Assembly: GCA_030145055.1 (NCBI GenBank)
Contig: JAQYWK010000002.1
Span: 372,001 to 436,000, forward strand
Length of the DNA stretch: 64,000 nucleotides
Source of the DNA: Desulfovibrio sp.
GTDB taxonomy: Bacteria; Desulfobacterota; Desulfovibrionia; Desulfovibrionales; Desulfovibrionaceae
Direction: 5' to 3'
The position numbers and the translations under genes were made by a program. Below the pieces are notes generated by a model. That model was not told the origin of the DNA, searched no databases, and saw only the letters and a list, made by a program, of their open reading frames with translations. Below, piece after piece: positions 44,964-62,250 of this stretch (its first letter is position 1; every line of letters begins with the position of its first letter).

Positions 44964-44995
44964 TTAGAACAACATGTGTTGGTGTAAAATGAAAT

Positions 44996-45115: not shown

Positions 45116-45282
45116 TTAAGTTTTTTCTTTAATTTTTACGGAAATTTACAAACGTTGATAAAGACGTAAGCCAGCAGATTATCAGAATCAAGTCTTTTTT
45201 ATAAAAAAAATTCAATCGCGAGTTAACTAGAAATAATTAACCTAATTTTTGAAACGACTACTTAAACATACCTATAGATCGG

Positions 45283-45993
45283 CTATTTTAACTTATAAAG
45301 TCCAACCCAGCCTGTTTTGTATCCTAGAAAACCGAACGAAAATTTAAACAGAAGCGCACTTACCAAATTGAATACAAGCATTGGAAGATCATTTTTCTTT
45401 AAAAGTAAATTCCGATCATTTTTAACTTTAACCGGACTTTTCCTGAACCTGATATCTTTAAGCTTGAGCTTAAAATTTGAACTGAACCCGACCTGCTCAG
45501 AATCACCGCTATAAAAGTTTTTAATGCCTTGCGGGTAATAAGGCTTCTGGTGATCTAGATCTAGCCAAAAGTGAGGATGCAACATAGGAGTAGCAATAAG
45601 AAGCAGTCCGCCCGGTTTCAAATGTTTCAAATATCCATCTATAAAACTGGTCAGATCTTCGAACTGAAAATGTTCCATAATATGCGACAGGATGAGAAAA
45701 TCAAACTTACTGTCGCCATGGATCTCTTCAAATTCGTCAAGAGTCACAACATTTAACCCTCGCTCATTGCAGCTTGCAACTTGATGCGCGTTCTTCTCAA
45801 CACCTAAAATATTATTAAATCCCTGTGAACGTAGAAAGTCAGTCTTACCGCCACGCCCACAGCCGACCTCAAGCACAGACATACCGCGATCAAGCCCAGA
45901 TAATACTGCTTCCCACTGTCCCATTTCATGTCTGGAAATAACTTTTGTAATGCCCCGAATTCTTTTTCGGATGTCTGGACTAGCCGTTAACAT
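45283..45993 (-). CDS. SAM-dependent methyltransferase of the glycan locus
   Basis: 236 residues. ATG at 45993, six bases after GGAG; a GTG one codon earlier is less well placed. Class I fold: SVLEVGCGRGGKTDFLRSQG, GVEKNAHQVASC, and FDFLILSHIMEHFQFEDL with KHLKPGGLLLIATPML. Methyltransf_23-like; acceptor unknown, probably a sugar or lipid-linked glycan given the neighbours. It overlaps the MurG-like gene upstream by 14 bp. Confidence 0.85.
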   Translation of the reverse strand: MLTASPDIRKRIRGITKVISRHEMGQWEAVLSGLDRGMSVLEVGCGRGGKTDFLRSQGFNNILGVEKNAHQVASCNERGLNVVTLDEFEEIHGDSKFDFLILSHIMEHFQFEDLTSFIDGYLKHLKPGGLLLIATPMLHPHFWLDLDHQKPYYPQGIKNFYSGDSEQVGFSSNFKLKLKDIRFRKSPVKVKNDRNLLLKKNDLPMLVFNLVSALLFKFSFGFLGYKTGWVGLYKLK

Positions 45994-47152
45994 CACATAC
46001 TCCTGCTAGTTCAGACAGATAGCGGGCAGCATTCGCTGCTCCATTAAGAGAAATACTAGAAGGCTTAACAGTTAATTCCAAACATTTTTCAAGCGAAGCA
46101 CGCAGTCCGTCCACTGAAACTTCTTCTTCAGAATAAACGTCAACTATTGCATCTGATGCTTTTTGCAGTGTCGCAACGTGCTCTTCCTGCTCGCCATCTT
46201 TCATTCCCCGTAAGAATACAACGGAAGGAATCCCGGCACTCATGACATCTGTCAAACTATTGTAACCACCGTAAATAATCGCAGATCTTGCGTTTGTAAG
46301 ATCTGTCAAAAATGATGGACCTACCTGTTCAAGAAAAACATTCGGATAACGCGCAAAGAAATCATTAACATCGCAAGATCCAGACTCTTTGAGGTTAATA
46401 TAAACTTTCCAAATCCCTTCAGCGACATCAAAAGAGCCAATAACCTGTGAAATTTTTTCAAGTAATACAAAAGTACCTTCACCGGACCACGGCACAGATA
46501 TAACACCGGCTATCTTTTTATCGGCACAACTATTCACACCTAGTCGCTGTAATTCTTTTAAGCGAGACACATACCCTGCCTCAAAAGGTGTTGTTTTATA
46601 ATGCTCGCGGAGTTTATCAACTTCTGCATTACCAGTTACAGCCGAATCTCCATACCAGAGTAAATTTGAATAGTTAGCACTAAAAACATTTGCCGAAAGT
46701 TCTGACCAGACCTTATCAACATCGCCGACAACAGCACGTACACCAAGAACCCAAATAGTATCTGTTGATCCATTCACAGCGCGCATAAGCTCTTTATGCT
46801 TTCCTTGCGGAGTATGATCGGCAAGCACAACCTTAGGTTTATACGCTTCGACGATATCACTGATGTTGTCAGATCTAAGAGTGCCCAGAAGCTTATCTTC
46901 AATGTTCGCAGGCCCCATTGCGCCGCAGGACTTACCTTCTGAAACTGAAGTTCGGTAAGATGGAAGTTTTAGCCAATCTAAATTGCCACCACCAATAAGC
47001 TCGGCAGTAGAGCCGCAGCCTGTAACAAAAAGTACCGACAAATGTGGAAACATCCTGCGTAAGGCTAAACCGATTGCAACACTTCTACTAACATGCCCGA
47101 GCCCTCTGCCATCGTGTGCATAAATAAGCACATCTATTATTGAACTCATCAT
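45980..47152 (-). CDS. MurG/COG4671-like glycosyltransferase 1
   Basis: 390 residues. The N-terminal loop is IYAHDGRGLGHVSRSVAIGL, the GT-B acceptor side shared with the two other MurG-like genes of this locus. The donor side has GVISVPWSGEGTF and late NARSAIIYGGYNSLTDVMSAG, like the GGxxS/T loop of MurG. No membrane anchor. It diverges from the 47396 gene across a 243-bp gap. Confidence 0.75.
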   Translation of the reverse strand: MMSSIIDVLIYAHDGRGLGHVSRSVAIGLALRRMFPHLSVLFVTGCGSTAELIGGGNLDWLKLPSYRTSVSEGKSCGAMGPANIEDKLLGTLRSDNISDIVEAYKPKVVLADHTPQGKHKELMRAVNGSTDTIWVLGVRAVVGDVDKVWSELSANVFSANYSNLLWYGDSAVTGNAEVDKLREHYKTTPFEAGYVSRLKELQRLGVNSCADKKIAGVISVPWSGEGTFVLLEKISQVIGSFDVAEGIWKVYINLKESGSCDVNDFFARYPNVFLEQVGPSFLTDLTNARSAIIYGGYNSLTDVMSAGIPSVVFLRGMKDGEQEEHVATLQKASDAIVDVYSEEEVSVDGLRASLEKCLELTVKPSSISLNGAANAARYLSELAGVCDVNG

Positions 47153-47332
47153 TAAACCTCTATTTTTTACTAAACTTAATTAAATCAAATTAATATCATA
47201 ATAAACTTTAACCCATAAAACACAAGAAAAGGGATTGCATACATCAAGAAAACAGAATAGAAAATATCACACACTTGGTTGAGCTTTTTTAAGGATTTAC
47301 AGGAGTAACTCTTTTCGCTAGATATTCCATCG

Positions 47333-47351
47333 GTCATTGCTATGCAATGAC
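47333..47351. promoter_or_regulatory. Palindrome at the head of the glycan locus
   Basis: GTCATTGC-tat-GCAATGAC is a perfect 8-bp inverted repeat. Its right arm overlaps ATGACA (47347-47352), which with a 16-base spacer and TATAAC forms a candidate promoter for the rightward genes, so binding here could block the polymerase. The rest of the 243-bp divergent gap is AT-rich. Confidence 0.4.
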
Positions 47352-47395
47352 AATTTAACTCAGTGGCATATAACCCCGGACAATCGGTACGATAA

Positions 47396-48562
47396 ATGAG
47401 TAAGACCTACAATATTTTGATGTATTCCCACGACACTTACGGTCTGGGACACATCCGCCGCACAATGGCAATTGCCTCCCATTTGAAATGTAAGGGAGTC
47501 AACATCCTGATAATTACAGGATCCCCCATTGTCGGTAGATTTGAATTTCCTGAACAGATTGATTTCGTTCGCGTTCCAGGGATGATAAAACAGTCAAACG
47601 ACAATTATATACCACATTCGATAAAGATAGATCCGGTCCACGCCATGTCCATCAGACAGTCCATAATTGATGCGACTGCAAAAAGCTTTCAGCCGGACCT
47701 GTTCATCGTAGACAAAGCTCCACGAGGCCTAAAGCATGAGATCATGCCTACCCTCGAGTGGATGAAACAATATGGCAAAACCAAAACTATCTTAGGTCTC
47801 AGAGATATCATGGATGATGCCGAAAGTACTACTAAAGACTGGACCGACAAAGGAATTTATGACGTTCTTGAGAACCTGTACTCTGAAATATGGGTTTACG
47901 GGCACAAAGAATACTATAACCCTATCGAAGAATACGCCATTCCTGAATCAATTAGCAAGAAAATGATATTTACCGGATATATTCCAAGAAAAGTTCATGC
48001 GCGCACTAGCCCGGAAGTTCGCAAGAACGGTAAAAAGCTTGTGGTTATCACCGCTGGCGGGGGCGGAGATGGTTACCCCATGATGGACGCCTATCTCAAA
48101 GCTCTTGAAAAACACGGTCAACAAAATTTCAGAACAGTAATGGTCACCGGACCATTCATGCCTGCTGACCTTAGGCGCGAACTTGCTGAACGAGCTAAAA
48201 AGCTTTCAGTCACTTTTTACCATTTTTACAGAAGAATGGAAAAATTATTCAGTAATGCGGATCTCGTTGTCAGCATGGGCGGCTATAATACTGTATGCGA
48301 AATCTTATCACATAAACAGGTAGGACTTATCGTCCCGCGCGAAACTCCAAGACTGGAACAGACCATCAGAGCCAATGTGCTGAAAGAGCAGAACCTTGCT
48401 GACTTCATTCCTTGGCATCAACTTGGACCGGACACCATGATGGAGAAGATAGACCTTCTTCTGAATAATTCACAGACAATAAAAGATGCGGTTTCAAACT
48501 TTAAATTTACAGGTCTAGACGTTATGCATCAGCGTGTCGGCCAGTTCAAAGATATTTGCTAA
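47396..48562 (+). CDS. MurG/COG4671-like glycosyltransferase 2
   Basis: 388 residues. N-terminal SHDTYGLGHIRRTMAIASHL and ILIITGSPIVGRFEFPEQID, and donor-site VVITAGGGGDGYPMMDAY and LVVSMGGYNTVCEILSH with LIVPRETPRLEQTIRA. COG4671-type predicted transferase. First gene of a run of six with overlaps or short gaps. Its stop overlaps the next start by one base. Confidence 0.82.
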   Translation: MSKTYNILMYSHDTYGLGHIRRTMAIASHLKCKGVNILIITGSPIVGRFEFPEQIDFVRVPGMIKQSNDNYIPHSIKIDPVHAMSIRQSIIDATAKSFQPDLFIVDKAPRGLKHEIMPTLEWMKQYGKTKTILGLRDIMDDAESTTKDWTDKGIYDVLENLYSEIWVYGHKEYYNPIEEYAIPESISKKMIFTGYIPRKVHARTSPEVRKNGKKLVVITAGGGGDGYPMMDAYLKALEKHGQQNFRTVMVTGPFMPADLRRELAERAKKLSVTFYHFYRRMEKLFSNADLVVSMGGYNTVCEILSHKQVGLIVPRETPRLEQTIRANVLKEQNLADFIPWHQLGPDTMMEKIDLLLNNSQTIKDAVSNFKFTGLDVMHQRVGQFKDIC

Positions 48563-49830
48563 TGATAAATAAAAACCAGCCTGTCCTCGCAATGATTCTC
48601 AAGGGATATCCCCGTATTTCTGAAACTTTTATTTCAAATGAAATTAGGCTCCTCGAAAAAAGAGGTGTTAAAATTCATATTATTTCCATGCGCAAACCGC
48701 GTGAGGAATTTGCACATAAATCAATTTCAGAAATAAAAGCTGAAGTATCATACCTGCCTTCCACTGTAGAAGGATGTTTAGAAGGTCTTTTCGGCTCCAC
48801 CGATGAAGATGCCGGTCTAAAAGATCCCCGCTATGGCAAGGATTCCGAATTTACTGTCCGCATAGATAAAATCTGGGACACTTTACGTGAAACTAAGAGT
48901 CAGGCTTCATTCAAACACATGCTCCAAGCAGAATATATAGTTGAAAAAGTTCTTCCAGGATCTGACATTTTCCATATTCATGCTCACTTCGCACATTCTC
49001 CCACATCTGTTGCGAGAAATGCGAGCAGACTATCCGGCCTCCCTTTCAGCTTCACAGCTCACGCAAAAGATATTTACACTCAGGCTCCATCTAAAATCAC
49101 AGCAAAAATATCAGAAGCAAAATTTGCAGTCACATGCACAGGCTACAACTGCAAATATCTCGAAGAAATCGCCCCTGAAGGTAAGCCTATTCACAAAGTT
49201 TACCACGGCATTGATCTTAAGCTTTTCACTTCCGACAAACCATTTTCATCCGCTCCTCCATATGAAATTTTCACAGTGGCACGCTTTACCCCTAAAAAAG
49301 GATTACCAACGGTATTCAAGGCTCTGAAAAAGCTTGATGAAAAAGGAATTGATTTTTCCTACAAAATAGTCGGTGACGGCGATGATAGAGAGTCCACCTT
49401 AGCTATGGTTGATGAGCTTGGATTATCAAAACGAGTTACATGGCTTGGCACAAAAGCACATGAAGAAGTTCTTGAGCTTTACCGCACTGCGGACCTGTTT
49501 GCATTAGGCTGTGAAATTGCTGAGAATGGAGACCGGGACGGAATTCCGAACGTTCTAGCTGAAAGTATGGCCATGTCAGTTCCAGTAGTTGCAACCACAG
49601 TTTCCGGCATTCCAGAACTGGTTGAGCACGGCAAAACGGGCATGCTTGTCGAATCTGGAGATTACGAAGCTATGGCTGATGCCATGGAAAAAATACTCAC
49701 GGATCAAGACCTTAGACTTGCAATGATTCCTGCGGCAAAAGCCAAAGTTCACGAAATTTTCGACAACCGCTACTGGATTAATGTACTCGCTGATGTTTAT
49801 GAACTTTATGGTATAAAAGCCAGCGCCTAA
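48562..49830 (+). CDS. GT4 glycosyltransferase A
   Basis: 422 residues. ATG at 48562, inside the previous stop (TAATG); an in-frame TTG six bases upstream is possible. Acceptor region KGYPRISETFISNEIRLLEK and HIHAHFAHSPTSVARN; donor domain TVARFTPKKGLPTVFKAL; E-x7-E region GIPNVLAESMAMSVPVVAT. Colanic-acid WcaL-like in pattern. No anchor. Confidence 0.87.
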   Translation: MINKNQPVLAMILKGYPRISETFISNEIRLLEKRGVKIHIISMRKPREEFAHKSISEIKAEVSYLPSTVEGCLEGLFGSTDEDAGLKDPRYGKDSEFTVRIDKIWDTLRETKSQASFKHMLQAEYIVEKVLPGSDIFHIHAHFAHSPTSVARNASRLSGLPFSFTAHAKDIYTQAPSKITAKISEAKFAVTCTGYNCKYLEEIAPEGKPIHKVYHGIDLKLFTSDKPFSSAPPYEIFTVARFTPKKGLPTVFKALKKLDEKGIDFSYKIVGDGDDRESTLAMVDELGLSKRVTWLGTKAHEEVLELYRTADLFALGCEIAENGDRDGIPNVLAESMAMSVPVVATTVSGIPELVEHGKTGMLVESGDYEAMADAMEKILTDQDLRLAMIPAAKAKVHEIFDNRYWINVLADVYELYGIKASA

Positions 49831-49856
49831 CACCGCAAAAGTAAGGAGCATAAAAT

Positions 49857-50978
49857 ATGAGAATTGCTTTTTTTGCTCCTCATAAACACATTCATCATGA
49901 GACTCCTTCAGGTGATTTAATGATCGGCAGAAGCCTGCACGACTTTCTTAAGTCTGAGGGACACGAGCTGATGATTGCCAGCAGGATGAAACTCCGCAAC
50001 ATCCTGATATCCCCGATCAGATGGCACGCTCTCTACCTTGAATACAAGAGAACACTTAAGCGAGTCACAGAATTTAAACCGGATCTTTGGCTGACCTACC
50101 ACAGCTACTATAAGTCTCCAGACTTACTTGGACCATCCATTTCATCAAAACTTGGTATTCCATATATGATTTACCAAGGTGTTTACTCCACTAAACACAG
50201 ACGTGATCCCAAAACATGGCTAGGCTTCATGGCTAATAAAAATGCCCTGCTCCACGCAGACCACGTTTTTGCCAATAAAGAAATCGACCACGAAAACCTT
50301 TCCCGCATTATTCTACCGGAAAAGCTCACACGAACCAGTCCCGGAATTAACCCTGATCTTTTTAAATTCTGCAAAAAAAGTAGAAACGAAACACGAAAAA
50401 AACTGGGTTTAGATGAATCTCCGACTATCATGACTACTGCCATGCTTCGTAGTGGGGTTAAAGAGCAAAGTGTTAATGACCTCATTAATGCTTTTTCAAT
50501 GGTTCTCAAAAAAGCTCCCGATGCAAAGCTCATAATAGCTGGAGACGGCGATGCGCGCGAACGATTGACTTTACTGGCAAACAAAATTTCTCAGGATAAT
50601 ATTATATTTTTAGGAAAGGTTAACCGTTTAGAACTTTTCAAATATTACAGCGCAGCGGATATTTTCGCTTACCCGGGTATTAATGAAGCACTAGGTATGG
50701 TTTATCTCGAAGCTCAAAGTTCCGGACTACCTGTTGTCGCATACTCGACACGCGGTCCATGCGAAGCTGTTAAACAAGATGAAACCGGACTTTTATCTCC
50801 TGAAGGAGATATTTCAGCTCTCGCAAAAAACATGCTCATTCTGCTCAATGACAAATCAAAACGTCACCGCATGGGTGAACGTGGATCATTACATATACAA
50901 GATAAGTTCGACTCAAATTTGAATATGGGACTAGTAGAAGCTAAAATAAGGCAAGTAATCTCAGGGAGGACCTTTTGA
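49857..50978 (+). CDS. GT4 glycosyltransferase B
   Basis: 373 residues. ATG with a clear AAGGAG. Acceptor side HETPSGDLMIGRSLHDFL, donor side LIIAGDGDARERLTLLANK and PGINEALGMVYLEAQSSGLP with VVAYSTRGPCEAVK. GT-B, retaining. The next gene starts inside its 3' end (4-bp overlap). Confidence 0.85.
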   Translation: MRIAFFAPHKHIHHETPSGDLMIGRSLHDFLKSEGHELMIASRMKLRNILISPIRWHALYLEYKRTLKRVTEFKPDLWLTYHSYYKSPDLLGPSISSKLGIPYMIYQGVYSTKHRRDPKTWLGFMANKNALLHADHVFANKEIDHENLSRIILPEKLTRTSPGINPDLFKFCKKSRNETRKKLGLDESPTIMTTAMLRSGVKEQSVNDLINAFSMVLKKAPDAKLIIAGDGDARERLTLLANKISQDNIIFLGKVNRLELFKYYSAADIFAYPGINEALGMVYLEAQSSGLPVVAYSTRGPCEAVKQDETGLLSPEGDISALAKNMLILLNDKSKRHRMGERGSLHIQDKFDSNLNMGLVEAKIRQVISGRTF

Positions 50979-51592
50979 AATCTGTAAAAATTGCTCTAAT
51001 TAGACACTCTGTCACAGTCTGGAACGAAGAAAACAGAATTCAAGGGCACATGAATTCGCCACTGACAAACCACGGAATCGAATTGGCAAAATCATGGAAA
51101 TCTGCACTCTCACCTGAATCTTTTGATGCGGTTATCACCAGTGATCTTGGGCGCACCATTGAAACAGCCAAAATCATTACCGAAGGCCTTGATTTACCAT
51201 TTATTACAGTTCCCGGCCTACGCGAACAAGACTGGGGAGAATGGTCGGGACTGACTTATGATGACCTCGAAGAAAAATGGCCCGGAGTTATGCCGGCAGA
51301 AGAAGCCAAAGGTTGGGATTTTCGCCCCGCCGGTGGAGAAAGTCGCCGCGAAACATCAATAAGAGCAATACAAGCACTCAGCGAAGCCGCGGCTGCGATA
51401 GCCGAAATAGTTGACAGTGACACACCTAAAGTGCTTGCTGTCATACATGAGGGTACACTAAAAACCATAACCTATAACCTAGCGGGGCATGATTTTATGC
51501 CGACCACAAGGAAGCTTATAAAACGCCGCCGTTTGCACTGGGTTAAATGGGATGGAACTTTATCGATAGATAGGCTAAACGACCTTCTATGA
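50975..51592 (+). CDS. Histidine-phosphatase (phosphoglycerate-mutase-like) family protein
   Basis: 205 residues from a TTG with GGGAGGA upstream, overlapping the previous gene. Catalytic head LIRHSVTVWNEENRIQGH (RHG usually; here RHS), then DLGRTIETAKIITEGL, REQDWGEWSGLTYDDLEE and VLAVIHEGTLKTI with the second His. In glycan loci such enzymes often remove phosphate from sugar or glycerate phosphates; substrate unknown. Confidence 0.85.
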   Translation: MKSVKIALIRHSVTVWNEENRIQGHMNSPLTNHGIELAKSWKSALSPESFDAVITSDLGRTIETAKIITEGLDLPFITVPGLREQDWGEWSGLTYDDLEEKWPGVMPAEEAKGWDFRPAGGESRRETSIRAIQALSEAAAAIAEIVDSDTPKVLAVIHEGTLKTITYNLAGHDFMPTTRKLIKRRRLHWVKWDGTLSIDRLNDLL

Positions 51593-52752
51593 AAATAATT
51601 CAGTACTGTCAGCATGTATTGGGCATGGGCCATTTTTTCAGAAGCCTCGAAATTTCACGAGCTTTTGAAAACGATCAGGTAATTTTTGTTGCAGGAGGTT
51701 CACGACCTGACCAGCAATTGCCTGACAATGTCGAATATTTTCAACTTCCCGGCCTATGCATGAATAAAAATTTCGGTGGGCTGATGCCTACCGAGGAAGG
51801 ACGTTCACTTGAAGAAGTAAAAAAAGAGAGGACTGAAACTCTCAAAAAAATATTTGAACAGGAAAAACCTGATATATTTCTGATTGAATTGTTCCCCTTC
51901 GGACGCAAGGCTTTCAGATTCGAACTCCTTCCGATTCTTGATGCAATTAAAGAAGGCAAATACGGCGACGTAAAAGTGGTCTGTTCGCTGAGAGATATTT
52001 TAGTAGAACGGGATGATGGCGGGAAACACGAAAATCGCTGCGTAAAGTATCTGAACAAATATTTTAATCTTCTACTCATCCATTCAGACCCCAAAATTGC
52101 AAAATTGGATGAAACTTTTTCTGTAATCGATGACATTTCCATTCCGCTAATTTATACAGGATTTGCAGCGCGAAAACCTCGCAAAGACGTTAGAAGTGTA
52201 ATTCGCAAAAGACTCGACATCGCTGATGATGTTAAGTTGATGGTTGCCAGTGTAGGTGGAGGAAAGGTAGGTGGTCCACTTCTAAGCGCGATATTAAATG
52301 GTTACATAAAATTGCAACCCATAAAAACCGAACTGTTGATATTAACGGGACCTTTTCTTGATCAACAAAATTTCGAAGAGTTAGTAAAAGAAGCCGCAAC
52401 AATATCCGGCATTAAAATAGAAAGATTTGCATCAGACTTCACAGACCTTCTTATGGGAGCAGATTGTATGATTTCCATGGCAGGGTATAACACTTGTATG
52501 GATATACTTACCACAGGTATCCCAAGCGCAGTCTTCCCTTTTGCCCAAAATCATGAACAGCGCATGCGGGCTGAAAAAATAGCAAAATACATTCCGCTTA
52601 AAATTCTAAACAATGAAGACCTAAACATAAGTAACATGAAAAATATAATCAAAGATCTTTTAGCTAGAGAGCGGACAACTACCGTCCACAATATAAATTT
52701 AGAAGGCGGCCTTGATTCTGCACGCGCAATCCAGAAGATAGGAAATAACTAA
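51589..52752 (+). CDS. MurG/COG4671-like glycosyltransferase 3
   Basis: 387 residues, ATGA overlap with the gene before. N-terminal QHVLGMGHFFRSLEISRAF, donor side MVASVGGGKVGGPLLSAI and MISMAGYNTCMDILTTGIP with FPFAQNHEQRMRAEKI. Same family as the two other MurG-like genes, but divergent in sequence. Ends in a TAATG overlap with the deacetylase. Confidence 0.8.
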   Translation: MKIIQYCQHVLGMGHFFRSLEISRAFENDQVIFVAGGSRPDQQLPDNVEYFQLPGLCMNKNFGGLMPTEEGRSLEEVKKERTETLKKIFEQEKPDIFLIELFPFGRKAFRFELLPILDAIKEGKYGDVKVVCSLRDILVERDDGGKHENRCVKYLNKYFNLLLIHSDPKIAKLDETFSVIDDISIPLIYTGFAARKPRKDVRSVIRKRLDIADDVKLMVASVGGGKVGGPLLSAILNGYIKLQPIKTELLILTGPFLDQQNFEELVKEAATISGIKIERFASDFTDLLMGADCMISMAGYNTCMDILTTGIPSAVFPFAQNHEQRMRAEKIAKYIPLKILNNEDLNISNMKNIIKDLLARERTTTVHNINLEGGLDSARAIQKIGNN

Positions 52753-53543
52753 TGTCATACCGCCCTATTTCTTCTATTTGGAAAAATAATATCTCTGATC
52801 TAATCGAAACCTTCGAAATTTGGTGGGAGAAACTTTCTGAATTAATACCGGAAAAAGGTTGTGATGTATTCTTCAGAGCCGATGATATAGGCTATCCTGG
52901 CAAACAATTTTCAGCAATGATCGAGGTTTTCCAAAAAAACAAAGTGCCCCTTGCGCTTGCCGTTGTTCCAACCTGGGTTAACCAAACCAGAGTTCAAAAA
53001 TTATATGAAACACTCGGTCCGGACATGTCTCTATGGTGTCTGCATCAGCACGGCTATAAACATACCAATCAAGAAAAAGTAGGTAAAAAATTCGAATTCG
53101 GTCCTTCGCGCGACATTAAAAAAGTTCTAGCCGAGCTCACTAAAGGTAAGCTTAAAATGAACAAACTGCTCGGTAATGACATGTGCCAAATCTTTACCCC
53201 GCCGTGGAATCGCTGCACCGAGGAAACAATGACAACACTGAGAGAACTGGGATTCATAGCAATCTCAAGAAGTATAAATGTTGCGCCCTTTCCATTAAAA
53301 GGATTACCTGATCTACCCATAAACATTGATTTGCACACAATTAAAGAAAAGAATCCTGAAGCTGGAATCCTTAATTTAATGGATCAGATTGAAAATGCAG
53401 TTCAAACTGATTACGCCGGATTTATGCTGCACCACCAGCGCATGAATAAAACTTCGGTCCGTTTTTTAGACTTTCTGCTAGCAAGAATTGCAGAAACACC
53501 ATCACTTCGTATCCAAGACATGCGAGACATGCTCCCTAAATAA
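52752..53543 (+). CDS. NodB-like polysaccharide deacetylase
   Basis: 263 residues. Metal-binding Asp in FFRADDIGYPGKQFSAMI, histidines in CLHQHGYKHTN, then IFTPPWNRCTEETMTTL and FMLHHQRMN near the end, fitting the NodB fold. No signal peptide, so it should act in the cytoplasm, on a soluble or lipid-linked sugar. It is the last gene of the rightward run. Confidence 0.8.
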   Translation: MSYRPISSIWKNNISDLIETFEIWWEKLSELIPEKGCDVFFRADDIGYPGKQFSAMIEVFQKNKVPLALAVVPTWVNQTRVQKLYETLGPDMSLWCLHQHGYKHTNQEKVGKKFEFGPSRDIKKVLAELTKGKLKMNKLLGNDMCQIFTPPWNRCTEETMTTLRELGFIAISRSINVAPFPLKGLPDLPINIDLHTIKEKNPEAGILNLMDQIENAVQTDYAGFMLHHQRMNKTSVRFLDFLLARIAETPSLRIQDMRDMLPK

Positions 53544-53603
53544 CCAACCTCACGTCTTTACCACTATCTACTTTGAAATAGACCCAGTTTTAAAGATAAA
53601 ACC

Positions 53604-53615
53604 ATAATGCATTAT
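53604..53615. repeat. 12-bp perfect palindrome
   Basis: ATAATGCATTAT in the 327-bp gap 53544-53870. Short and AT-rich, so chance is possible. The gap also holds the inverted repeat at 53650-53681 and the hairpin at 53750-53791. Confidence 0.3.
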
Positions 53616-53649
53616 CAATTTTAAATTATACACGGTTATAGTGTTCATA

Positions 53650-53681
53650 ATTCTTGATAAACCGTACACTGCATCAAGAAT
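53650..53681. promoter_or_regulatory. 9-bp inverted repeat upstream of the ABC system
   Basis: ATTCTTGAT and ATCAAGAAT with a 14-base spacer, about 190 bases before the permease start. A two-site operator or a stem-loop; regulator unknown. Confidence 0.4.
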
Positions 53682-53749
53682 GATCGTATGATAAATAAGT
53701 ATTTTTACTTTGCATTCCGCGCAGTTTCGGTTACTAAATAGGTATAAAA

Positions 53750-53791
53750 ATACAAAGATATAGCAGGTAAAGCCTGTTTACTTTTTGTATT
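53750..53791 (+). terminator. Possible hairpin upstream of the ABC operon
   Basis: CAGG/CCTG with TAAAG between, flanked by outer ATACAAA/TTTGTAT arms, followed by an AT-rich stretch. It may be a terminator of the preceding glycan genes or part of the 5' leader. Weak. Confidence 0.35.
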
Positions 53792-53870
53792 TTGTAAAAA
53801 TTTTAAGCATGCATTTTTTATGTAACTGTTTATCTGCACGCACTCATTTGGTTTTTTTAAAGAGCATAAA

Positions 53871-54551
53871 ATGGCACAGAAAAAAAGAATACCATTTCAA
53901 GATCCTGACTCTGAAACAGATATTGTTGCTCAGGTCGTTCTTCCTTTTGATAAATCACTTGAAATTAGTATAAAAAGTATCAAGTCCAGATTTCTTAGAA
54001 ATATGGTAACAGTCACATCCCTTATACTTGCCGTTTCTTTTCTGGCATACATACTGATCGGCAGTGATATAACCAATGGTATTTACGGTTCAGGGCAGCC
54101 TGATTTAATGAAAATGCTTGAGAAATCAGGCTATCAAGTTGGCGGCAGCGCCAAAGAGCGTTGGATCGTAATTCTATCACTTCTGGTTTGTACTGTCGGA
54201 ATTATTAACGCACAGCTTATGGCGGTCACGGAAAGATTCCGAGAAATCGGGACCATGAAATGCCTTGGCGCACTCGATAGCTTTGTTCTGCGACTGTTTG
54301 TTCTTGAAGCCTCAATGCAGGGAGTTGTAGGTTCACTTCTCGGAGCACTTGCAGGCGGCGTAATAGCTATTCTCCTTGGGATGCTTCGGTTTGGATTTGA
54401 TGCAATCAAATTTCTCCCTTTATCAGACATAGGCATTTCCGTGCTCTACTCCATTGGAGTCGGCTTCGGACTTAGTCTTGTCGGGGTTTTCTACCCAGCT
54501 TTAATTGCTGCGAAAATGCGCCCCATTGAAGCAATGCGGGTTGAAGAATAA
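53871..54551 (+). CDS. ABC transporter permease, FtsX-like (short subunit)
   Basis: 226 residues. Four membrane segments: one at about 45-65 and three at 100-225, the FtsX/MacB layout. GIINAQLMAVTERFREIGTM and KCLGALDSFVLRLFVLEA form the cytoplasmic coupling region, and the C-terminal YPALIAAKMRPIEAMR is a MacB-type end. It lacks the large periplasmic domain seen in MacB. ATG at 53871. It should pair with the ATPase and giant permease downstream. Confidence 0.85.
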   Translation: MAQKKRIPFQDPDSETDIVAQVVLPFDKSLEISIKSIKSRFLRNMVTVTSLILAVSFLAYILIGSDITNGIYGSGQPDLMKMLEKSGYQVGGSAKERWIVILSLLVCTVGIINAQLMAVTERFREIGTMKCLGALDSFVLRLFVLEASMQGVVGSLLGALAGGVIAILLGMLRFGFDAIKFLPLSDIGISVLYSIGVGFGLSLVGVFYPALIAAKMRPIEAMRVEE

Positions 54552-54628: not shown

Positions 54629-55363
54629 ATGCCCGATACACATACCATAGTTAGAGTTACCGGAGTTACGAAAAACTTTAAACTCGGCAGCACTAATGTT
54701 CAGGCTTTAAAAGGCGTTGATCTTGAAATATACGCTGGTGAGTACCTCTCGATTATGGGGCCGTCAGGCTCTGGTAAATCTACACTATTCAATATGATCG
54801 GCGGATTGGATAAACCTACCGAAGGTAAAGTTTTCATTGATGAAGTGGATATCGCTCAGCTTGATGCATTCGAACTAGCATGGCTTCGTAACCGTAAAAT
54901 TGGCTATATATTTCAAACATTCAATCTCATTCAGGTAATGACAGCCCTTGAAAACATTACGCTTCCCATGATTTTCGCAGGGGTTCATAATGATGCGGCT
55001 GTGAAAAAAGGAATTGAACTCCTTGATCTTGTCGGACTCCATAAGAGATACAATCACAAACCGCAGGAACTTTCCGGAGGGCAGCAGCAGCGCGTCGCAA
55101 TTGCAAGATCACTTGCCAATGACCCCGCTATTATTCTTGCTGATGAGCCAACTGGTAACCTTGACCTTTCAACAGGTGAAGAGATCATCAAATTGATGAG
55201 CGCACTCAGTAAAGAACGCGGAGTTACTATTATTACAGCTACTCATGACTACAAGATGCTGAATGCTTCTGACCGGGTAGTTTGGATTGAGGACGGCCTT
55301 GTTAAGAAAGTTGAAAATCGAGATCAGCTCAACATTGATGTTGGCTGTATCCGCATGGCCTGA
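54629..55363 (+). CDS. ABC transporter ATPase, LolD/MacB type
   Basis: 244 residues. Walker [20 protein letters not shown]-loop [16 protein letters not shown], signature [16 protein letters not shown], Walker [18 protein letters not shown], switch His in ATHDYKML. Belongs to the exporters that drive mechanical transmission and not usual substrate pumping. It lies between the two permeases. Confidence 0.92.
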
Positions 55364-55382: not shown

Positions 55383-58300
55383 ATGTCCACCCTTTTGATA
55401 AATAAAACCCGCTTGCAATTTTCAGCACAAAAAGTGTTGATTACTATTGCGATATTGTGCGTGCTGACATTAATCAGCGCACCGCAAAAAGCTTACAGTT
55501 CATCCGAACCATACAAACAGACCATTTCCGAGCTAACAGCTCTTGGAGATCGTTCTTTTGGTACGGATGGTGAAAAAAAAGCTGCGGACTACATCGTAAA
55601 GAGATTTAAAGAACTTGGCGATTTCAAAGTAGGAAAACACCTCTTCCTAGCGCCGACAATGGTTAATTCAGGTGCTGAGCTAACCATAGGTAAAAGCGGT
55701 AAAAAGATTAGCATAAGCCCCGCTAAATTTAATGCAATATCTCCGCCTGCAACATCACGCGAAGGCCTTACAGGCCCCATGATCTATGTAGGTAAGGGGA
55801 GCTTATCTGATTTCAACGGACTGCCCATCCAAAATGCAATAGTCCTGATGGATATTGATTCTGGTAAAAACTGGCTGAACGCCGCAAGTCTTGGCGCATC
55901 CGCTCTTATTTATATTGATTCAGGACCAACACTGAAAGGATTCTTTGAAGAAAAATTAGAACTCTCGCCGCTGGATTTCCCGCGATATTACATGAGTGCC
56001 AGTGACAGCAAAAGTCAACTGGGTCTTACACCTGATGACACTTATAAAGTTGTAGCAAAACAGGCAACCGTAAAATCTTCAGCAAAATGGGAACGCATTG
56101 CCGCTGAAAATATTTACTGCATGATCGAAGGGACTGATCCTAAACTTTCAGAAGATTTGGTCATCATCGAATCTTTCTACGACAGCTCTTCATATATAAT
56201 GGGTAATTCTCCAGGAGCTGACGAAGCGCTATCCATTGCATCACTCTTTGAGATCGGCAAAAAATTTGCGGCTAATCCGCCGAAACGTTCAATTCTTCTT
56301 CTCGCTACTACCGGACACGGTCAATCACTGCGGGGAATGCGTGAATTCGTCAAAGCTATTTCTGGCAAAAGTATCAGTCTAAAAAGAATCAAAGCTCAGC
56401 TTAGTAAGAAAAAGAATAATGCGGCTCAGATTTTAGAAGGATTAGAAATGGATAATCCGCTTGCCACAGAAATGGCAGTCGAGAATCCTGAACTTTTCAA
56501 TCTGATGTACACCGCGCTTAAAAATCAAATAAAAGACGAAGTCGATATTATCAGCAAAGAGCTTATGAAAATGCGCATGAATAAAAGCATGAGCAAAGCT
56601 GAAATTAAAATTGTGGACGACAAGCGAAAACTTTTGCGCCGTATTTCATGGAAGAGTAATTACTCGGCACTTCCCGCAGAGGAAAATGTAGCACTTCGTG
56701 ATCTATTCCCGAAACTTAAAGCTAAAGTACACGCGGTTAAACAAGACATTAAGCAACAGTTAGAAGCCGCAAGAAGTGCGCGAATTCTTCGCAGGATAGT
56801 CAGAGCTAAAGAGCCAGTCTGTACTGTTTCCTTGCACCTTTCAAGTCGCGGTGAAGGAGTTGGAGCATTCGGCCAAGGCTGGTTTTATGATCTACGTCCA
56901 AGAGTAAATCTTTCCAGAACATTCGCTCAGATTAATGATATTTTGGCTGACGCTGCTCCTATAGTTGAAAAAAACATCGGAACAAGCGGATTATTTACTG
57001 ACACCCTGCGCCCGAACAGATCCAGACCATGGCAGACATGGCTACTTGATAAGCCGCAGTTCAGCAGTGAAGTGGCTACAATGGCAGGACTGCTCAGCTT
57101 CACATTTGCAACCGTAAATGACGGCCGACCTTACTGGGGTACGCCATTTGATACTTTAGAAAATGTTAACTGGGATGGAATCGAAAAGCAGGCCGAACTA
57201 GTAGAAGGCCTCACCAGAACCATATCTGAGTCCACCGTACCCCTTACAACAAAACTGCCGCGCAAAGGATTTGCTCTGGTTAACGGTAAAGCCCGTTTCG
57301 TAAGACAGGGTGAACTCTTCGCCGACCAGCCGGCCCCCGATACAATTTTCATGTCCTTTCAGGGCAACACGCGCTTTTACTCTCTAGCCGACATGGAAGG
57401 AGACTTTAAAATTAGCGGAGTTGCGTCAAGTAAGCTAGTTCAGGCAAAGCTTATAGTTGAGGGCTACAAATACAACCCTGACGGCAGAATTGTATGGGCT
57501 ATTGATAAAAAGCAGACAGGCAAGAGTGCATACAGACTTAAAATGCGCCGCCTTGATATGGAAACAAAAGTTGTCATGTTTGCATGTACGCAGACGACTC
57601 TATTCGACCTGCTGACTCCACGAACTTTCAGGTACATGACAAAAGTTGAAGTACTGGATGGAGCGCGCGATGCAGACCCAATGCATTATTGGTACAGCCG
57701 TATTGATACCCGTTCTTCCACAATTGCCAGTGTTTTCCTTGAGCCGAATGTGCCGCTCAAGATGACTCTGTCTGATTCTGTGCTGAACCGTAAAATGATT
57801 CTCATCCACTCCACCCCTGAAGATACCGGAGGTAATGGGTACAACTTAAAAGAATGGCCCATCATACCTGCGACCAATCATAGAGCAGCCTCAGATATGT
57901 GGAACCTTCTCAAGCCGAGAATCGCAAATCTCGAATCTCACGGCATTGTTAATGAACGGATCAGAACCTTGGAAAAGCAAGGAACAGAAGCTCTTGCCAA
58001 GTCTAATAAAGCGTGGAAAGACCGCCAGTATGATGACTTCATGGAAAACTCGCGCACAGCGTGGGCCTTGGCTTCAAGAGTATATCTTGATGTAGACCAA
58101 ACACAAAAAGACGTTCTGGTCGGTGTTCTGTTTTATATCGCGCTATTCATACCCTTTGCATACTGTATAGAAAGAGTAATCTTTGCTTTCGCAGATATTC
58201 ATAAAAGAATTTTAGGATTCCTTGGCATATTAATGACCGTTATTGGGCTCATTTATATGGTCCATCCGGCATTCCAGCTCACCTATAGTCCCATGGTGGT

Positions 58301-60257
58301 AATCTTAGCCTTTTTCATCCTCGGACTATCTGTAATGGTTTCACTAATCATCTTTTTCAGATTTGAAAAAGAAATGATTCTATTGCAACAACGAGCGCAC
58401 AAGACAAGTACGTCCGAAATCAGCAAATGGAAGGCTTTCACATCTGCATTTGTAATCGGCGTCAGTAACTTACGCAGAAGGAAAATCAGAACTTTCCTGA
58501 CATGTCTGACGCTTACTATTCTGACATTTACTATCATGAGTTTCACTGCGGTAAAATCTCTGAGAGAACACACATACGTTCTTTTCAGTGAAAACCAGCC
58601 CTATTCCGGTATTTTCATGAAAAATATGGGCTGGAAAGATCTTCCTCGTGAAACACTTGGAATCGTAAGTAATGACTTCCAAGAAAATGGCATAGTTGCT
58701 CCGCGCGGCTGGCTTGAATTAAAAGATAAAACTATATCAGCAAGCACCCCTGTAAGCTTCGAAGGTAAGCATGAGGAAGTTAAGGGTCTAGTTGGGCTTA
58801 GTCATATAGAAAATAAAATCAGCGGTATTGATACAATTCTAGTCGACGGAACATGGCTTGTTCCTGATCTCAACAGACAGATTATACTTTCCAAGAAGAT
58901 GGCTGACAGACTTGGTGCGTCTGCCGGAGACGAAGTTACTGTATGGGGTAGCAGCTTCATATTAACAGGAACTTTCGACAGCAAAAAGTTCACTGAGCAT
59001 ACGGATCTTGACGGCGAGCCGATGTCGCCTGTTATTTTCCCTTCAGCTACAGCTCAAGAACTTAGCGAAGTTGAGGCTGATGCGATTGAATCAGGCGAAG
59101 ATATCGACACATTCCAAGGTCGCTATACCCATATTCCAGGTGAAGTAACCGCCATCGTTCCATATGATACTCTTATGGCCATGGGCGGAAGTTTGAAAGC
59201 TGTTGCCATTGCACCGCTTAGAGGTGTTTTCTCGAAGGAATCTATTAATGGGCTAGTGGACCGTTATGGACTGCCTATATTCAGCTGTGACACAACGGGA
59301 ACATACATCTGTCAGGCCTCAGACAGTATGAACTACTCCGGTGTATCAAATATTCTCATTCCGCTCATAATATCTGCACTCATCGTGCTGAATACTATGA
59401 TTACGAGTGTTTACGAACGCAAAAAAGAAATTGCCGTTTACACATCCATAGGGATGGCTCCGACCCACGTTTCATTCTTATTTATTGCTGAGGCTGTGGC
59501 CTTCGCAGTAATCAGCGTGGTAATCGGCTATCTCATTGCGCAAACGGCCTCGGGTCTGTTAGCTGGGACACCTCTGTGGGCTGGCATGACCGCCAACTAT
59601 TCATCCATGGCCGGAGTTGCCGCAATGCTTCTTGTTATTGCCGTAACGCTTATTTCAGTGATCTATCCTTCAAGAGTAGCGGCAAACATTGCTATTCCTG
59701 ATGTTAATAGATCATGGAAAATGCCTGACTCAGGATCAGATGATATCGAGGCAACTCTACCCTTCCTGCTCAAACATAATGAGCAAAAGGATGCAGGTGG
59801 ATTTTTGCTTGAATACCTTGAAGCTCATACCGAAGTTTCACACGGACTATTTTCAACTTCGGAAATTGAGGTCAACTTTAGCAGTCGTCCTCTACCTGAA
59901 TCATTAAAGGAAATATCGGAAGATTTCCCTGACCATATTGCTTGTTTCCAGTTCGATGTACGCGTCTGGCTTGCACCATTTGACTTCGGCGTAAAACAAA
60001 TGGTCAGACTTGAATTCAGACCGTCTACTGAATACCCGCAGTTCCTTGAAGCGGCACTGACCATATCTCGTGAATCAGGTGAAATAGGCGCGTGGAAAAG
60101 ACTTAATAAAAGTTTCATCAACGCCATCAGAAAACAGTTCCTTGTGTGGCGTTCACTTGATCCTGAAAAACAAAAGACTTTCCGTGATAAGATTCCAGAG
60201 TTGATGGCATTTGGATTCACAGGACTTGACCTTAAAAAGACTCTTGAAGACCTTTAA
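55383..60257 (+). CDS. Giant FtsX-like permease with an N-terminal degenerate M28-peptidase domain
   Basis: 1624 residues from ATG 55383 (GGAGG upstream; the open frame itself extends further back). A first membrane helix at 15-35 is followed by a large periplasmic part. Residues 50-340 resemble M28 aminopeptidases (RSFGTDGEKKAADYIVKRF; IESFYDSSSYIMGNSPGADE; LLATTGHGQSLRGMREF), but the zinc-binding His of HxD is Phe, and the Glu-Glu of the next motif is absent. Later come a helical part, three membrane helices (about 905-990), an FtsX/MacB_PCD half (helix about 1030, periplasmic domain, helices about 1320-1435) and a 190-residue soluble tail. It should be the main permease of the ABC system. 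Confidence 0.8.
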   Translation: MSTLLINKTRLQFSAQKVLITIAILCVLTLISAPQKAYSSSEPYKQTISELTALGDRSFGTDGEKKAADYIVKRFKELGDFKVGKHLFLAPTMVNSGAELTIGKSGKKISISPAKFNAISPPATSREGLTGPMIYVGKGSLSDFNGLPIQNAIVLMDIDSGKNWLNAASLGASALIYIDSGPTLKGFFEEKLELSPLDFPRYYMSASDSKSQLGLTPDDTYKVVAKQATVKSSAKWERIAAENIYCMIEGTDPKLSEDLVIIESFYDSSSYIMGNSPGADEALSIASLFEIGKKFAANPPKRSILLLATTGHGQSLRGMREFVKAISGKSISLKRIKAQLSKKKNNAAQILEGLEMDNPLATEMAVENPELFNLMYTALKNQIKDEVDIISKELMKMRMNKSMSKAEIKIVDDKRKLLRRISWKSNYSALPAEENVALRDLFPKLKAKVHAVKQDIKQQLEAARSARILRRIVRAKEPVCTVSLHLSSRGEGVGAFGQGWFYDLRPRVNLSRTFAQINDILADAAPIVEKNIGTSGLFTDTLRPNRSRPWQTWLLDKPQFSSEVATMAGLLSFTFATVNDGRPYWGTPFDTLENVNWDGIEKQAELVEGLTRTISESTVPLTTKLPRKGFALVNGKARFVRQGELFADQPAPDTIFMSFQGNTRFYSLADMEGDFKISGVASSKLVQAKLIVEGYKYNPDGRIVWAIDKKQTGKSAYRLKMRRLDMETKVVMFACTQTTLFDLLTPRTFRYMTKVEVLDGARDADPMHYWYSRIDTRSSTIASVFLEPNVPLKMTLSDSVLNRKMILIHSTPEDTGGNGYNLKEWPIIPATNHRAASDMWNLLKPRIANLESHGIVNERIRTLEKQGTEALAKSNKAWKDRQYDDFMENSRTAWALASRVYLDVDQTQKDVLVGVLFYIALFIPFAYCIERVIFAFADIHKRILGFLGILMTVIGLIYMVHPAFQLTYSPMVVILAFFILGLSVMVSLIIFFRFEKEMILLQQRAHKTSTSEISKWKAFTSAFVIGVSNLRRRKIRTFLTCLTLTILTFTIMSFTAVKSLREHTYVLFSENQPYSGIFMKNMGWKDLPRETLGIVSNDFQENGIVAPRGWLELKDKTISASTPVSFEGKHEEVKGLVGLSHIENKISGIDTILVDGTWLVPDLNRQIILSKKMADRLGASAGDEVTVWGSSFILTGTFDSKKFTEHTDLDGEPMSPVIFPSATAQELSEVEADAIESGEDIDTFQGRYTHIPGEVTAIVPYDTLMAMGGSLKAVAIAPLRGVFSKESINGLVDRYGLPIFSCDTTGTYICQASDSMNYSGVSNILIPLIISALIVLNTMITSVYERKKEIAVYTSIGMAPTHVSFLFIAEAVAFAVISVVIGYLIAQTASGLLAGTPLWAGMTANYSSMAGVAAMLLVIAVTLISVIYPSRVAANIAIPDVNRSWKMPDSGSDDIEATLPFLLKHNEQKDAGGFLLEYLEAHTEVSHGLFSTSEIEVNFSSRPLPESLKEISEDFPDHIACFQFDVRVWLAPFDFGVKQMVRLEFRPSTEYPQFLEAALTISRESGEIGAWKRLNKSFINAIRKQFLVWRSLDPEKQKTFRDKIPELMAFGFTGLDLKKTLEDL

Positions 60258-60276: not shown

Positions 60277-62250
60277 ATGCATGGTAACATAAGAATACGG
60301 GCGATAGCACTCGGAATCATTTTTGGATTAATAATATGTGCTTTTACGCCATTTAATAATGCCTACTTAAACGCGACTCCGCTGGCAGGTGGTCATTTCC
60401 CTCTGGCGCCGTTTTTTATTCTGGCATGGCTCACAGCAATTTCAGCGTTACATCATAAGATTTTCCGATCTGTCCCGCTTTTAACTGGGCTGGAACTTAT
60501 GACAATGTGGATTCTTACTGTCATTGTTTCAGGGATAGCATTTACCGGCCTTGCCCGAACATTTTTTATCAACCTGACGGCTCCGTTTCATTTCGCGTCC
60601 ATCGGTAACAGATGGAAGGAAGTGCTTCAGCCCTTGATGCCGGAATCACTTCACCCTACTGATCCCAAGGCCATAGAATCCCTATACAATGGTATTAAGG
60701 GCGGATCTTTCATGGACAATGTGGATCTGTTTGCAGCCATTCCTTGGTCTGCATGGGCAATCCCGCTCATGTGGTGGGCGGCCTTCATCCTACTTTGCTA
60801 TTTCATGATGCTCTGTCTGACCAATATTTTCAGTCGTCAGTGGGTTGAAAATGAACGAATCAACTTCCCTCTGCTTCAGTTGCCTAGATTTATGGAAGAG
60901 GCTCTTGATCAAGGATTATACGGTTCATTCCTTACTAATAAGTTTTTCTTAAGCGGTATAACTTTCTGCGTACTCCTTCACACCATGAACGGATTACATT
61001 TCTACATACCGTCAGTTCCAGAAATGCCGACACTCGTACTGGCCGGTAAATATTTCGCGAAAACGGGACTTTTTTCCGGCTTTACTAAACTTAAAATATA
61101 CTTCTACCCCGCTTTTGTGGGCTTCGCCTTCCTTGCTTCACGCCAGATCTCATTTAGCTTCTGGTTCTTTTTCCTGTCGGGCGGACTCTTCTACGGAGTA
61201 TTAAATGCTGCGGGTTTGAATATCCCTGCATCAGCGCTTGGAGTCACATTCGGGCCGACATTGACCAGACCGGAAGAAACACAGATGATCGGTGCATATC
61301 TTGTATTTTTCTGCTTTATCGTCTGGCTGGCAAGGCAACACCTACAACAAGTTTTGCGCGAAGCCTTCGGCGGCGGTCAAACGAAAAGCGCCTCCGAATG
61401 GATGTCCTTGCGATTCTCATTTTGGGGACTGCTGATTTCCGCATGTCTGCTCGTCGCATGGTGCGTAAATTTCGGTGTACCTATGCTTGTAGCGCTCGTT
61501 GTGCTGACGGCATTCTTTATATTCACCTTAGTTGCATCAAAAGCCATTTGTCAGGGTGGTATCGCATACTTCACTTTGACCGCGGCCCCGCTAGACGGCG
61601 TAACTGCCATGTTCGGAACAAAGTTTTTCGGCGCAATCGGAATCGCAATTACCGCCATGTGTCAGAAAATTCTCTTTGTTGACCTTAGAGAATCACTGAT
61701 GCCGTCACTTGTTCACGGATCAAAAGTGAATGAATGGATCAAAAACAAACGTTTATTCCTATCAGGCATAATCATTATTGTGCTGGCTGGTGTCGCGGTA
61801 TCTTTCGCGGCTATGTTATTCGTTTGTTATAAATACGGTATTAGAGAGCTTCATCTGGACTGGGCGACAAGCACATCCATGACTGTGTATGACAGCGTCG
61901 TGCGAGTTATACAAGAACCGGCAGCATCAACCGAATGGGTTACAACCTTTGCAACCGTCGGTGCTATTGTCATGACGACCTTAGTTGTTGCGTATAACAG
62001 ACTGCCATGGTGGCCTCTGCATCCAATCGGATACCTGACTGCCTATAGCTCAGCCATGAAAATCCTCTGGTTCAGCTTTTTCCTTGGATGGATGTGTAAC
62101 CAGCTCACCCTTCGTTACGGAGGAGTCGGGCTGTTTAAACGCGTCAGATACTTTTTCTTCGGATTAATTATGGGCGACTTCTTAATGGGCGGAGGATGGG
62201 CTTTATACGGCTTATGGGCCGGACAAAGTTATCAGGTTCTTCCTGGATAA
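60277..62250 (+). CDS. OPT-like polytopic membrane protein 1 (DUF6785-type)
   Basis: 657 residues, about 14 hydrophobic segments. It opens with IRIRAIALGIIFGLIICAFT and TPFNNAYLNATPLAGGHFP. Later come RPEETQMIGAYLVFF and SKAICQGGIAYFTLTAAP, a pattern I link to the DUF6785/DUF6784 OPT-like families. The name is from memory; substrate unknown, oligopeptide is only a guess. 19 bp after the giant permease, so in one operon. Confidence 0.65.
   Translation: MHGNIRIRAIALGIIFGLIICAFTPFNNAYLNATPLAGGHFPLAPFFILAWLTAISALHHKIFRSVPLLTGLELMTMWILTVIVSGIAFTGLARTFFINLTAPFHFASIGNRWKEVLQPLMPESLHPTDPKAIESLYNGIKGGSFMDNVDLFAAIPWSAWAIPLMWWAAFILLCYFMMLCLTNIFSRQWVENERINFPLLQLPRFMEEALDQGLYGSFLTNKFFLSGITFCVLLHTMNGLHFYIPSVPEMPTLVLAGKYFAKTGLFSGFTKLKIYFYPAFVGFAFLASRQISFSFWFFFLSGGLFYGVLNAAGLNIPASALGVTFGPTLTRPEETQMIGAYLVFFCFIVWLARQHLQQVLREAFGGGQTKSASEWMSLRFSFWGLLISACLLVAWCVNFGVPMLVALVVLTAFFIFTLVASKAICQGGIAYFTLTAAPLDGVTAMFGTKFFGAIGIAITAMCQKILFVDLRESLMPSLVHGSKVNEWIKNKRLFLSGIIIIVLAGVAVSFAAMLFVCYKYGIRELHLDWATSTSMTVYDSVVRVIQEPAASTEWVTTFATVGAIVMTTLVVAYNRLPWWPLHPIGYLTAYSSAMKILWFSFFLGWMCNQLTLRYGGVGLFKRVRYFFFGLIMGDFLMGGGWALYGLWAGQSYQVLPG

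Follow-up and report, generated by a model that had tools for sequence, protein, structure and literature searches.

A candidate two-part envelope glycoconjugate system in Desulfovibrio and its relatives

What might a cluster of glycosyltransferase, phosphatase and deacetylase genes be building, and where might its product be sent? That question is raised by eight genes found at positions 45283 to 53543 of a 64,000-nucleotide stretch of Desulfovibrio sp. DNA, which is the window of this study (G000:C3:372001-436000 of a 3.9-Mb genome). An initial annotation described these genes as two arms, treated as equals, with no flippase nearby, and suggested that such a free-standing set might supply a soluble solute or a flagellin glycan. 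All eight open reading frames indeed are present at the coordinates and on the strands given there, i.e., as a minus-strand pair (45283-45996 and 45980-47152) and a plus-strand six (47396-53543) that diverge from a 243-bp gap, and the enzyme families support a glycan-type locus. The boundary that was drawn, however, does not hold, as an ATP-binding cassette (ABC) exporter beginning 327 bp downstream had been overlooked and the conserved unit runs past the end of the window. The core of the set, moreover, goes with that exporter, by synteny as well as by phylogenetic profile, rather than standing free. The observation, that is, is confirmed, while its interpretation is partly supported and is to be widened: Judging from sequence comparisons, the eight genes would on balance form the cytosolic part of an envelope glycoconjugate system that has two halves, the exporter being the other.

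Along the plus strand, GTb, G4a, G4b, HP, GTc and DA (two MurG-like glycosyltransferases, GTb and GTc, two GT4 glycosyltransferases, a histidine phosphatase and a deacetylase) are followed by FtsX1, ABC, M28FtsX, OPT and OPT2 (two permeases, FtsX1 and M28FtsX, an ATPase and two polytopic membrane proteins). The case for joining these two groups is in the first place one of shared inheritance. The survey marker on the cytosolic side is GTc (51589..52752, plus strand), and markers on the exporter side are M28FtsX (55383..60257, plus strand) and the DUF6785 domain of OPT (60277..62250, plus strand). Among 345 genomes of the phylum, representing 225 genera, GTc is matched at E<=1e-15 in 32, with 23 of these matches strong (E<=4e-96) and the other nine no better than 3e-51, which is paralogue strength; the dividing line was drawn after the gap was seen. 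DUF6785 and M28FtsX (E<=1e-20) are each matched in 23 of the 345, and these are the identical 23 genomes that have a strong GTc. In every one of them the GTc profile finds another, weaker match as well, which presumably is GTb. OPT2 (62323..64000, plus strand, cut by the window end, with the whole gene reaching position 64284, i.e., G000:C3:436284) is matched at E<=1e-5 in 21 of 326 genomes, all within the 23, and the remaining two, G443 and G448, were also seen to carry it.

A survey of the family (119 genomes) compared GTc with DUF6785. There GTc is matched at E<=1e-10 in 45 genomes, two of them weakly (G005 at 2.8e-11 and G045 at 1.3e-11), and the remaining 43 coincide, genome for genome, with the 43 that have DUF6785. 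DUF6785 is seen in none of 14 control genomes. In the genomes searched, that is, GTc, M28FtsX, OPT and OPT2 occur jointly or not at all. The chance of such equal sets would be near 1e-36 for the 345 genomes and near 1e-33 for the 119, figures which assume independent genomes and which are overstated because the genomes are not independent.

Gene order, too, recurs. Genes in relatives were called by tblastn together with codon-trained calling, and the named loci (n=77) come from the best 80 of 589 relatives, with titles of Desulfobacterales, Desulfobulbaceae, Desulfovibrionaceae and similar, such that the scan is uninformative on other phyla. The arrangement GTb-G4a-G4b-HP-GTc-DA-FtsX1-ABC-M28FtsX-OPT-OPT2 is seen repeatedly over the phylum. 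Among 40 loci from the own family, many keep this order as far as M28FtsX, and other genera of the family have the set divided over two or three places. Of 30 further loci, taken from the order and the phylum, those of several families show the same order, and in others GTc-FtsX1-ABC-M28FtsX-OPT form one group and GTb-G4a-G4b lie elsewhere. Such recurrence across the phylum shows the plus-strand order to be more than chance. With counts taking in only those named loci that have enough flank, HP is present in 62 of the 66 with at least 2 kb upstream of GTc, and G4a is near GTc in 38 of 47. The nearest named record for GTc, from Desulfovibrio sp. UBA2564, is 66% identical, this being among the best 80 of 589, where records very near the own genome possibly were left out.

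One genome of the family, the weakly matching G045, lacks DUF6785, and its cassette has the appearance of natural decay. Its GTc frame is of 111 residues, with 62 aligned, and just 154 C-terminal residues of its G4a align, with full-length G4b, HP and DA standing beside these truncated genes (L218 = G045:C1:1558001-1577000, at 6400-9900). The 19 kb read there showed none of the set's exporter genes, a single 42-bit OPT2 match which overlaps DA being taken as chance.

What sort of exporter is it, then, with which the cytosolic genes travel? FtsX1 (53871..54551, plus strand) is a small FtsX-type permease, ABC (54629..55363, plus strand; PF00005, 124.1 bits) is an ATPase of the LolD/MacB/DevA class, and M28FtsX is a permease of 1624 residues, its start best placed at 55383, with gaps from FtsX1 through OPT2 of at most 77 bp. 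Both permeases exceed the PF02687 cut-off of 25.5 bits (57.8 for FtsX1, 49.1 for M28FtsX), and the ATPase is closest to LolD (229.9 bits), with MacB at 212.9 and DevA at 208.9. An FtsX-type permease domain along with a LolD/MacB-class ATPase is what defines a type VII (MacB/Lol/FtsEX) ABC transporter, the MacB_PCD score of 20.3 bits being under its cut-off of 27. Within this type, DevBCA is known to export glycolipids and LolCDE to extract lipid anchors (PMC5985334). ABC-2 (Wzm/Wzt) export of O-antigen or capsule does not fit, given FtsX-type permeases and an ATPase nearest LolD/MacB/DevA. Nor does a Wzx/Wzy pathway, as the Pfam matches of the scanned genes (the eight genes, FtsX1 through OPT2, plus D298 and a PqqD-domain gene lying beyond OPT2) include no flippase, polymerase or priming transferase.

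The likeness to the DevBCA (HgdD) heterocyst glycolipid exporter and to MacAB-TolC is one of class, i.e., a type VII ATPase with an FtsX-type permease. Unlike in those systems, the permeases here are of two kinds, of which one carries a very large degenerate M28 domain, and there are also a co-inherited glycosyltransferase cassette and a DUF6785/OPT2 pair. LolCDE is resembled in that the ATPase is closest to LolD and in that one ATPase stands beside two unlike permease chains. The scores nonetheless are below the curated cut-offs for LolD (229.9 versus 307.75 bits) and LolC/E (46.1 versus 362.45), and the genome has its own, separate LolC/E gene (C5:513694; 391.1 bits, above cut-off).

M28FtsX consists of a signal anchor, a periplasmic part of ~880 residues (an M28 fold with insertions), further transmembrane segments and a C-terminal FtsX domain. 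The M28 fold is confirmed by structure-model comparison, mainly over model residues 1-582, with the beta-rich part at 585-780 unmatched. In alignment with 2ek8, the zinc-binding His has become Phe in 27 of 32 rows and is His in none of the 32, the Glu-Glu pair has become His (27 of 32) plus Ala, Gly, Asn, Asp or Ser, neither of the two places having Glu in any row, and the position of the last His is Gly, though as read from an alignment piece of just 0.5 bits. The domain thus lacks residues that an active M28 peptidase would have, and catalysis likely has been lost. Pseudo-M28 domains are found as well in transferrin receptor 1 and nicastrin, unlike which the domain here is fused to an FtsX ABC permease, and in a bacterium. 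The M28FtsX gene of one genome, G222, has one stop codon.

Of the two polytopic membrane proteins, OPT scores above cut-off for both DUF6785 (PF20581, 547.5 bits) and DUF6784 (PF20580, 119.2 bits). OPT2, of 653 residues, is 70-83% identical to relatives outside of the genus and is the most conserved part of the system, with no match in Pfam or NCBIfam, and none at E<=10 among PDB sequences; its AlphaFold model (predicted local distance difference test, pLDDT, 36.7) was not used. That OPT and OPT2 might be detectable homologues was rejected, as hhalign finds nothing (probability 0.2), and their common ‘OPT’ label therefore is by eye only. OPT2 adjoins OPT in 24 of 25 OPT loci, the exception being L197 (G190), where OPT2 is on another contig.

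Following OPT2 in the own genome and in several relatives are D298, which belongs to no family, and a PqqD-domain protein (PF05402), located at G000:C3:436434-437715, which is L107:9434-10715. It is in part this pair that suggests another and unlikely product, a glycosylated peptide or metallophore which is made and exported, or re-imported, with the glycosyltransferases decorating the peptide, the M28 domain binding it and the OPT-like proteins taking it up. Radical SAM (S-adenosylmethionine) genes beside GTb in some genomes may be viewed likewise, as may the M28 domain itself, M28 being a peptide-binding fold. PqqD, however, is seen in just 7 of the 25 OPT loci, the radical SAM genes are outside of the core, and ‘OPT-like’, as noted, is a naming by eye. 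Furthermore, a comparison of six own-genus loci found no conserved small open reading frame, i.e., no hidden peptide gene, in the gap at 53543-53871, and no precursor was recognized.

Turning to the cytosolic half, its plus-strand genes overlap or almost abut from 47396 to 53543. GTb (47396..48562, plus strand; PF04101, 48.1 bits) and GTc (PF04101, 40.6 bits) share with MurG/GT28 and with the MJ1255/VC2487 family a C-terminal GT28 domain. The initial annotation had placed these two and a third enzyme, GTa (45980..47152, minus strand), in one family, and this is borne out by profile-profile comparison with hhalign (GTb-GTc, 100%, E=5e-43; GTa-GTb, 99.5%, E=1e-22; GTa-GTc, 99.6%, E=3e-24), though GTa matches no Pfam model. 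The GLGHxxR head that had been described is present but must be loosened to G[L/M]GHxxR, since GTc has GMGHFFR. GTb is 55-64% identical to its aligned counterparts in other genera, and its nearest solved structure by sequence is MurG 7d1i (E 7.7e-07). Unlike MurG and MJ1255, however, the gene context differs and scores are far under the cut-offs of both models (MurG equivalog TIGR01133, cut-off 250.25, with GTb at 36.9 and GTc at 31.9 bits; MJ1255, cut-off 195.9, with GTb at 29.6). PF13528 has no match in the own genome.

The assignments of the other enzymes stand as initially made, by Pfam. G4a (48556..49830, plus strand; PF00534, 127.7 bits) is EpsE/WcaL-like, with 172.5 bits against EPS_EpsE, under the cut-off of 400. 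G4b (49857..50978, plus strand; PF00534, 125.3 bits), which is absent from some relatives, has BshA as its best curated match (TIGR03999, 94.2 bits versus a cut-off of 273.7) and scores 82.5 bits versus 462.5 for MshA (TIGR03449), thus belonging to neither. Both also fall short of the GPMC system family 4 glycosyltransferase (NF038229, cut-off 400; G4a 65.1 and G4b 49.6 bits). No glycosyltransferase of the set exceeds any curated NCBIfam cut-off among the models listed, i.e., for G4a the best 25 of 36 and for G4b the best 25 of 42. HP (50975..51592, plus strand; PF00300, 141.6 bits) is a CobC-like histidine phosphatase of branch 1, at 96.6 bits under the ribazole_cobC cut-off of 162.9. DA (52752..53543, plus strand) is a DUF2334/NodB-type deacetylase (PF10096, 46.9 bits, over a cut-off of 26; PF01522, 20.4 bits, just under 23.1). 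It has the RADD, H-x3-H and PPWNR motifs of the NodB-type polysaccharide deacetylase superfamily, with D44, D45, H100, H104, P150, P151, W152, N153, R154, H227 and H228 invariant in 16 aligned rows; the Asp-Asp, H-x3-H and PPW-type motifs we take to have their customary roles. A simple scan saw no hydrophobic segment in DA, in keeping with a cytosolic enzyme and with the claim that it is without a signal peptide.

The two arms are not equals. GTa and MT, a SAM-dependent methyltransferase (45283..45996, minus strand; PF13489, 58.8 bits), form a minority accessory arm outside of the conserved core. Close GTa copies (E<=1e-145) are found in 12 of the 119 family genomes, all 12 being core-positive and with GTa adjoining GTb, and MT adjoins GTb in relatives, mostly alongside GTa, without it in L027 and L031. 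Other loci have other genes near the core, including SAM methyltransferases, GNAT and hexapeptide acyltransferases, GSCFA proteins, radical SAM proteins, a STELLO-type glycosyltransferase and extra NodB enzymes. A fixed core with variable decoration is typical of surface glycans.

Two loci have arnB-arnC-arnA-arnD-arnT-like genes between DA and FtsX1 (L185:12112-18866 and L174:3072-9842). In L185 ArnA scores above its cut-off and the other four below (617/631, 488/529, 363/382 and 489/567 bits), and in L174 the assignment is by resemblance alone. These arnBCADT-type genes bring to mind a variant modification of the lipopolysaccharide (LPS) core or outer core, with the glycosyltransferases acting on lipid A-core and the ABC/OPT half delivering the modified lipid. 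There is also a precedent, in that the glucosamine branch of the A. baumannii lipooligosaccharide core needs a predicted polysaccharide deacetylase along with a glycosyltransferase (PMC10936431). Such a modification is nevertheless improbable, as no waa/lpx-type gene is among the scanned core genes, the core glycosyltransferases are under every curated LPS cut-off among the models listed, the own genome carries a separate Wzy_C/ligase-type gene, and the system is absent from 76 of the 119 family genomes, unlike a basal LPS core.

How, instead, might a two-part envelope glycoconjugate system operate? GTb, G4a, G4b and GTc would assemble a short oligosaccharide in the cytosol on some acceptor, perhaps a lipid, with HP taking phosphate off of the sugar or acceptor, DA unmasking an amino sugar, and accessory enzymes decorating the product (MT and GTa in this genome; acyltransferases, GSCFA proteins, radical SAM proteins or Arn enzymes in others). 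FtsX1, ABC and M28FtsX, as a type VII (LolCDE/MacB-class) exporter, would then move this product out of the inner membrane, the degenerate M28 peptidase domain perhaps having been reused to bind it, as in transferrin receptor or nicastrin, and OPT and OPT2 would be obligatory membrane partners in flipping the glycoconjugate or passing it on. It is very probable that all of these parts belong to one system. As the core goes, by synteny and profiles, with the ABC exporter and two polytopic membrane proteins, an exported product is argued for, and that product probably is an envelope glycoconjugate. That it is lipid-linked is plausible while falling a little short of probable. More tentative is the full picture, namely, a further glycoconjugate export route in which a short decorated oligosaccharide, probably on lipid and assembled by two or three MurG-like enzymes with one or two of the GT4 family, may be moved by a type VII ABC exporter having a dead-peptidase receptor domain, with the DUF6785/DUF6784 protein and OPT2 as obligate partners and OPT2 as flippase or handover channel.

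Several points weigh against this account. Linkage is far from universal in the named loci, both for cytosolic genes (DA, 49 of 62; G4b, 40 of 55, counted as lying no more than 7 kb upstream of GTc where the locus extends at least 4 kb in that direction; GTb, 28 of 41) and for the exporter side (ABC, 33 of 42; M28FtsX, 29 of 42; DUF6785, 22 of 41). The metal-site residues Asp222 (32 of 32 rows) and Asp235 (31 of 32) are retained by M28FtsX, and the title of PDB 2anp calls a Glu-to-His change at the general base functional, for which reasons catalytic loss is likely rather than proven. Unlike with DevBCA or MacAB-TolC, no HlyD adaptor or TolC is found among the scanned locus genes, to which the search was confined. 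Lipid linkage rests on exporter class, as the scanned core genes include neither a priming transferase nor an enzyme of lipid A. Lastly, D298, present in all 43 core-positive family genomes, is present as well in 10 of the 76 core-negative ones and was rejected as an exclusive partner.

It might be supposed instead that a glycan cassette and some other ABC system are two independent envelope modules which are inherited together by chance. The 327-bp gap between the gene groups in the own genome could be so read, as could distances, as GTc and DUF6785 are within 25 kb of one another in 21 of the 43 family genomes and, in the other 22, are separated by 50 kb to 3.3 Mb of the same contig (eight genomes) or lie on different contigs (14, of which some may be assembly breaks). 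This supposition is quite improbable given the coincidence of profiles in 345 and in 119 genomes, the truncated glycosyltransferases of G045, where DUF6785 is missing, and genus g21, in which G057, G079 and G108 have both GTc and DUF6785 and G021 neither. Distances correlated over 22 genomes give r=0.53 for GTc with OPT2, r=0.58 for GTc with OPT and r=0.87 for OPT with OPT2; these values had no species-tree control and were not used. A small soluble glycoside, e.g., a compatible solute or, as the BshA match of G4b and the set's recalling of mycothiol synthesis (GT4, phosphatase, deacetylase) might suggest, a low-molecular-weight thiol, is scarcely credible given four core glycosyltransferases, an exporter and two membrane proteins that are inherited along with them, and a core without a ligase or acyltransferase to complete a thiol.

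An envelope glycoconjugate system of this makeup is apparently undescribed. A search of open PMC literature, i.e., of open papers only and thus not proof of absence, found no description of the locus or system, nor anything on DUF6785, DUF6784, or COG4671 with glycosyltransferase. With no curated LPS or capsule model reached among those listed, the initial statement that no known pathway has this content still stands. Known protein superfamilies and one unmodelled family, that is, make up a probable export system, in a combination fitting no known pathway found. This supplies a functional context for DUF6785/DUF6784 and for OPT2, and all-or-nothing inheritance predicts one common phenotype for glycosyltransferase, ABC and OPT2 mutants. 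If confirmed, the system would add a glycan-export route to those of the Wzx/Wzy, ABC-2 and synthase types, and would do so in a sulfate-reducer phylum about whose envelope chemistry little is known.

Somewhat similar cassettes exist. In L105:5020-10579, a MurG-like glycosyltransferase adjoins a G4a-type GT4 enzyme, and a gene that has an ABC-type match comes after them. In L106 and L219 (L219:5097-11222), GTb-like and G4a-like genes are separated by other genes, with an ABC-type match nearby in L219. These cassettes differ, however, in having 34-39% identity, other neighbors and GTc matches of paralogue strength only, and genomes with cassettes of these types (G132, G173 and G354) are not among the DUF6785 or M28FtsX matches.

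As to signals in the DNA, promoter-like sites at 44800-54000 are at chance level (21 found versus 20.8 expected), and terminator-like sites number 12 versus 8.4 expected. The DA-FtsX1 gap, at 53543-53871 in the window, contains upstream of FtsX1 a short stretch with CTTTGCAT that is common to own-genus loci (CTTTGC in L026), and this gap is shorter, 68-178 bases, in most other loci measured. Genera g25 and g41 have, upstream of HP, a protein of ~1200 residues, CBS/PAS-like by eye (L041:9950-13636 and L050:5749-9375), and in g9 GGDEF-like and HDOD-like genes, likewise by eye, stand beside GTb.

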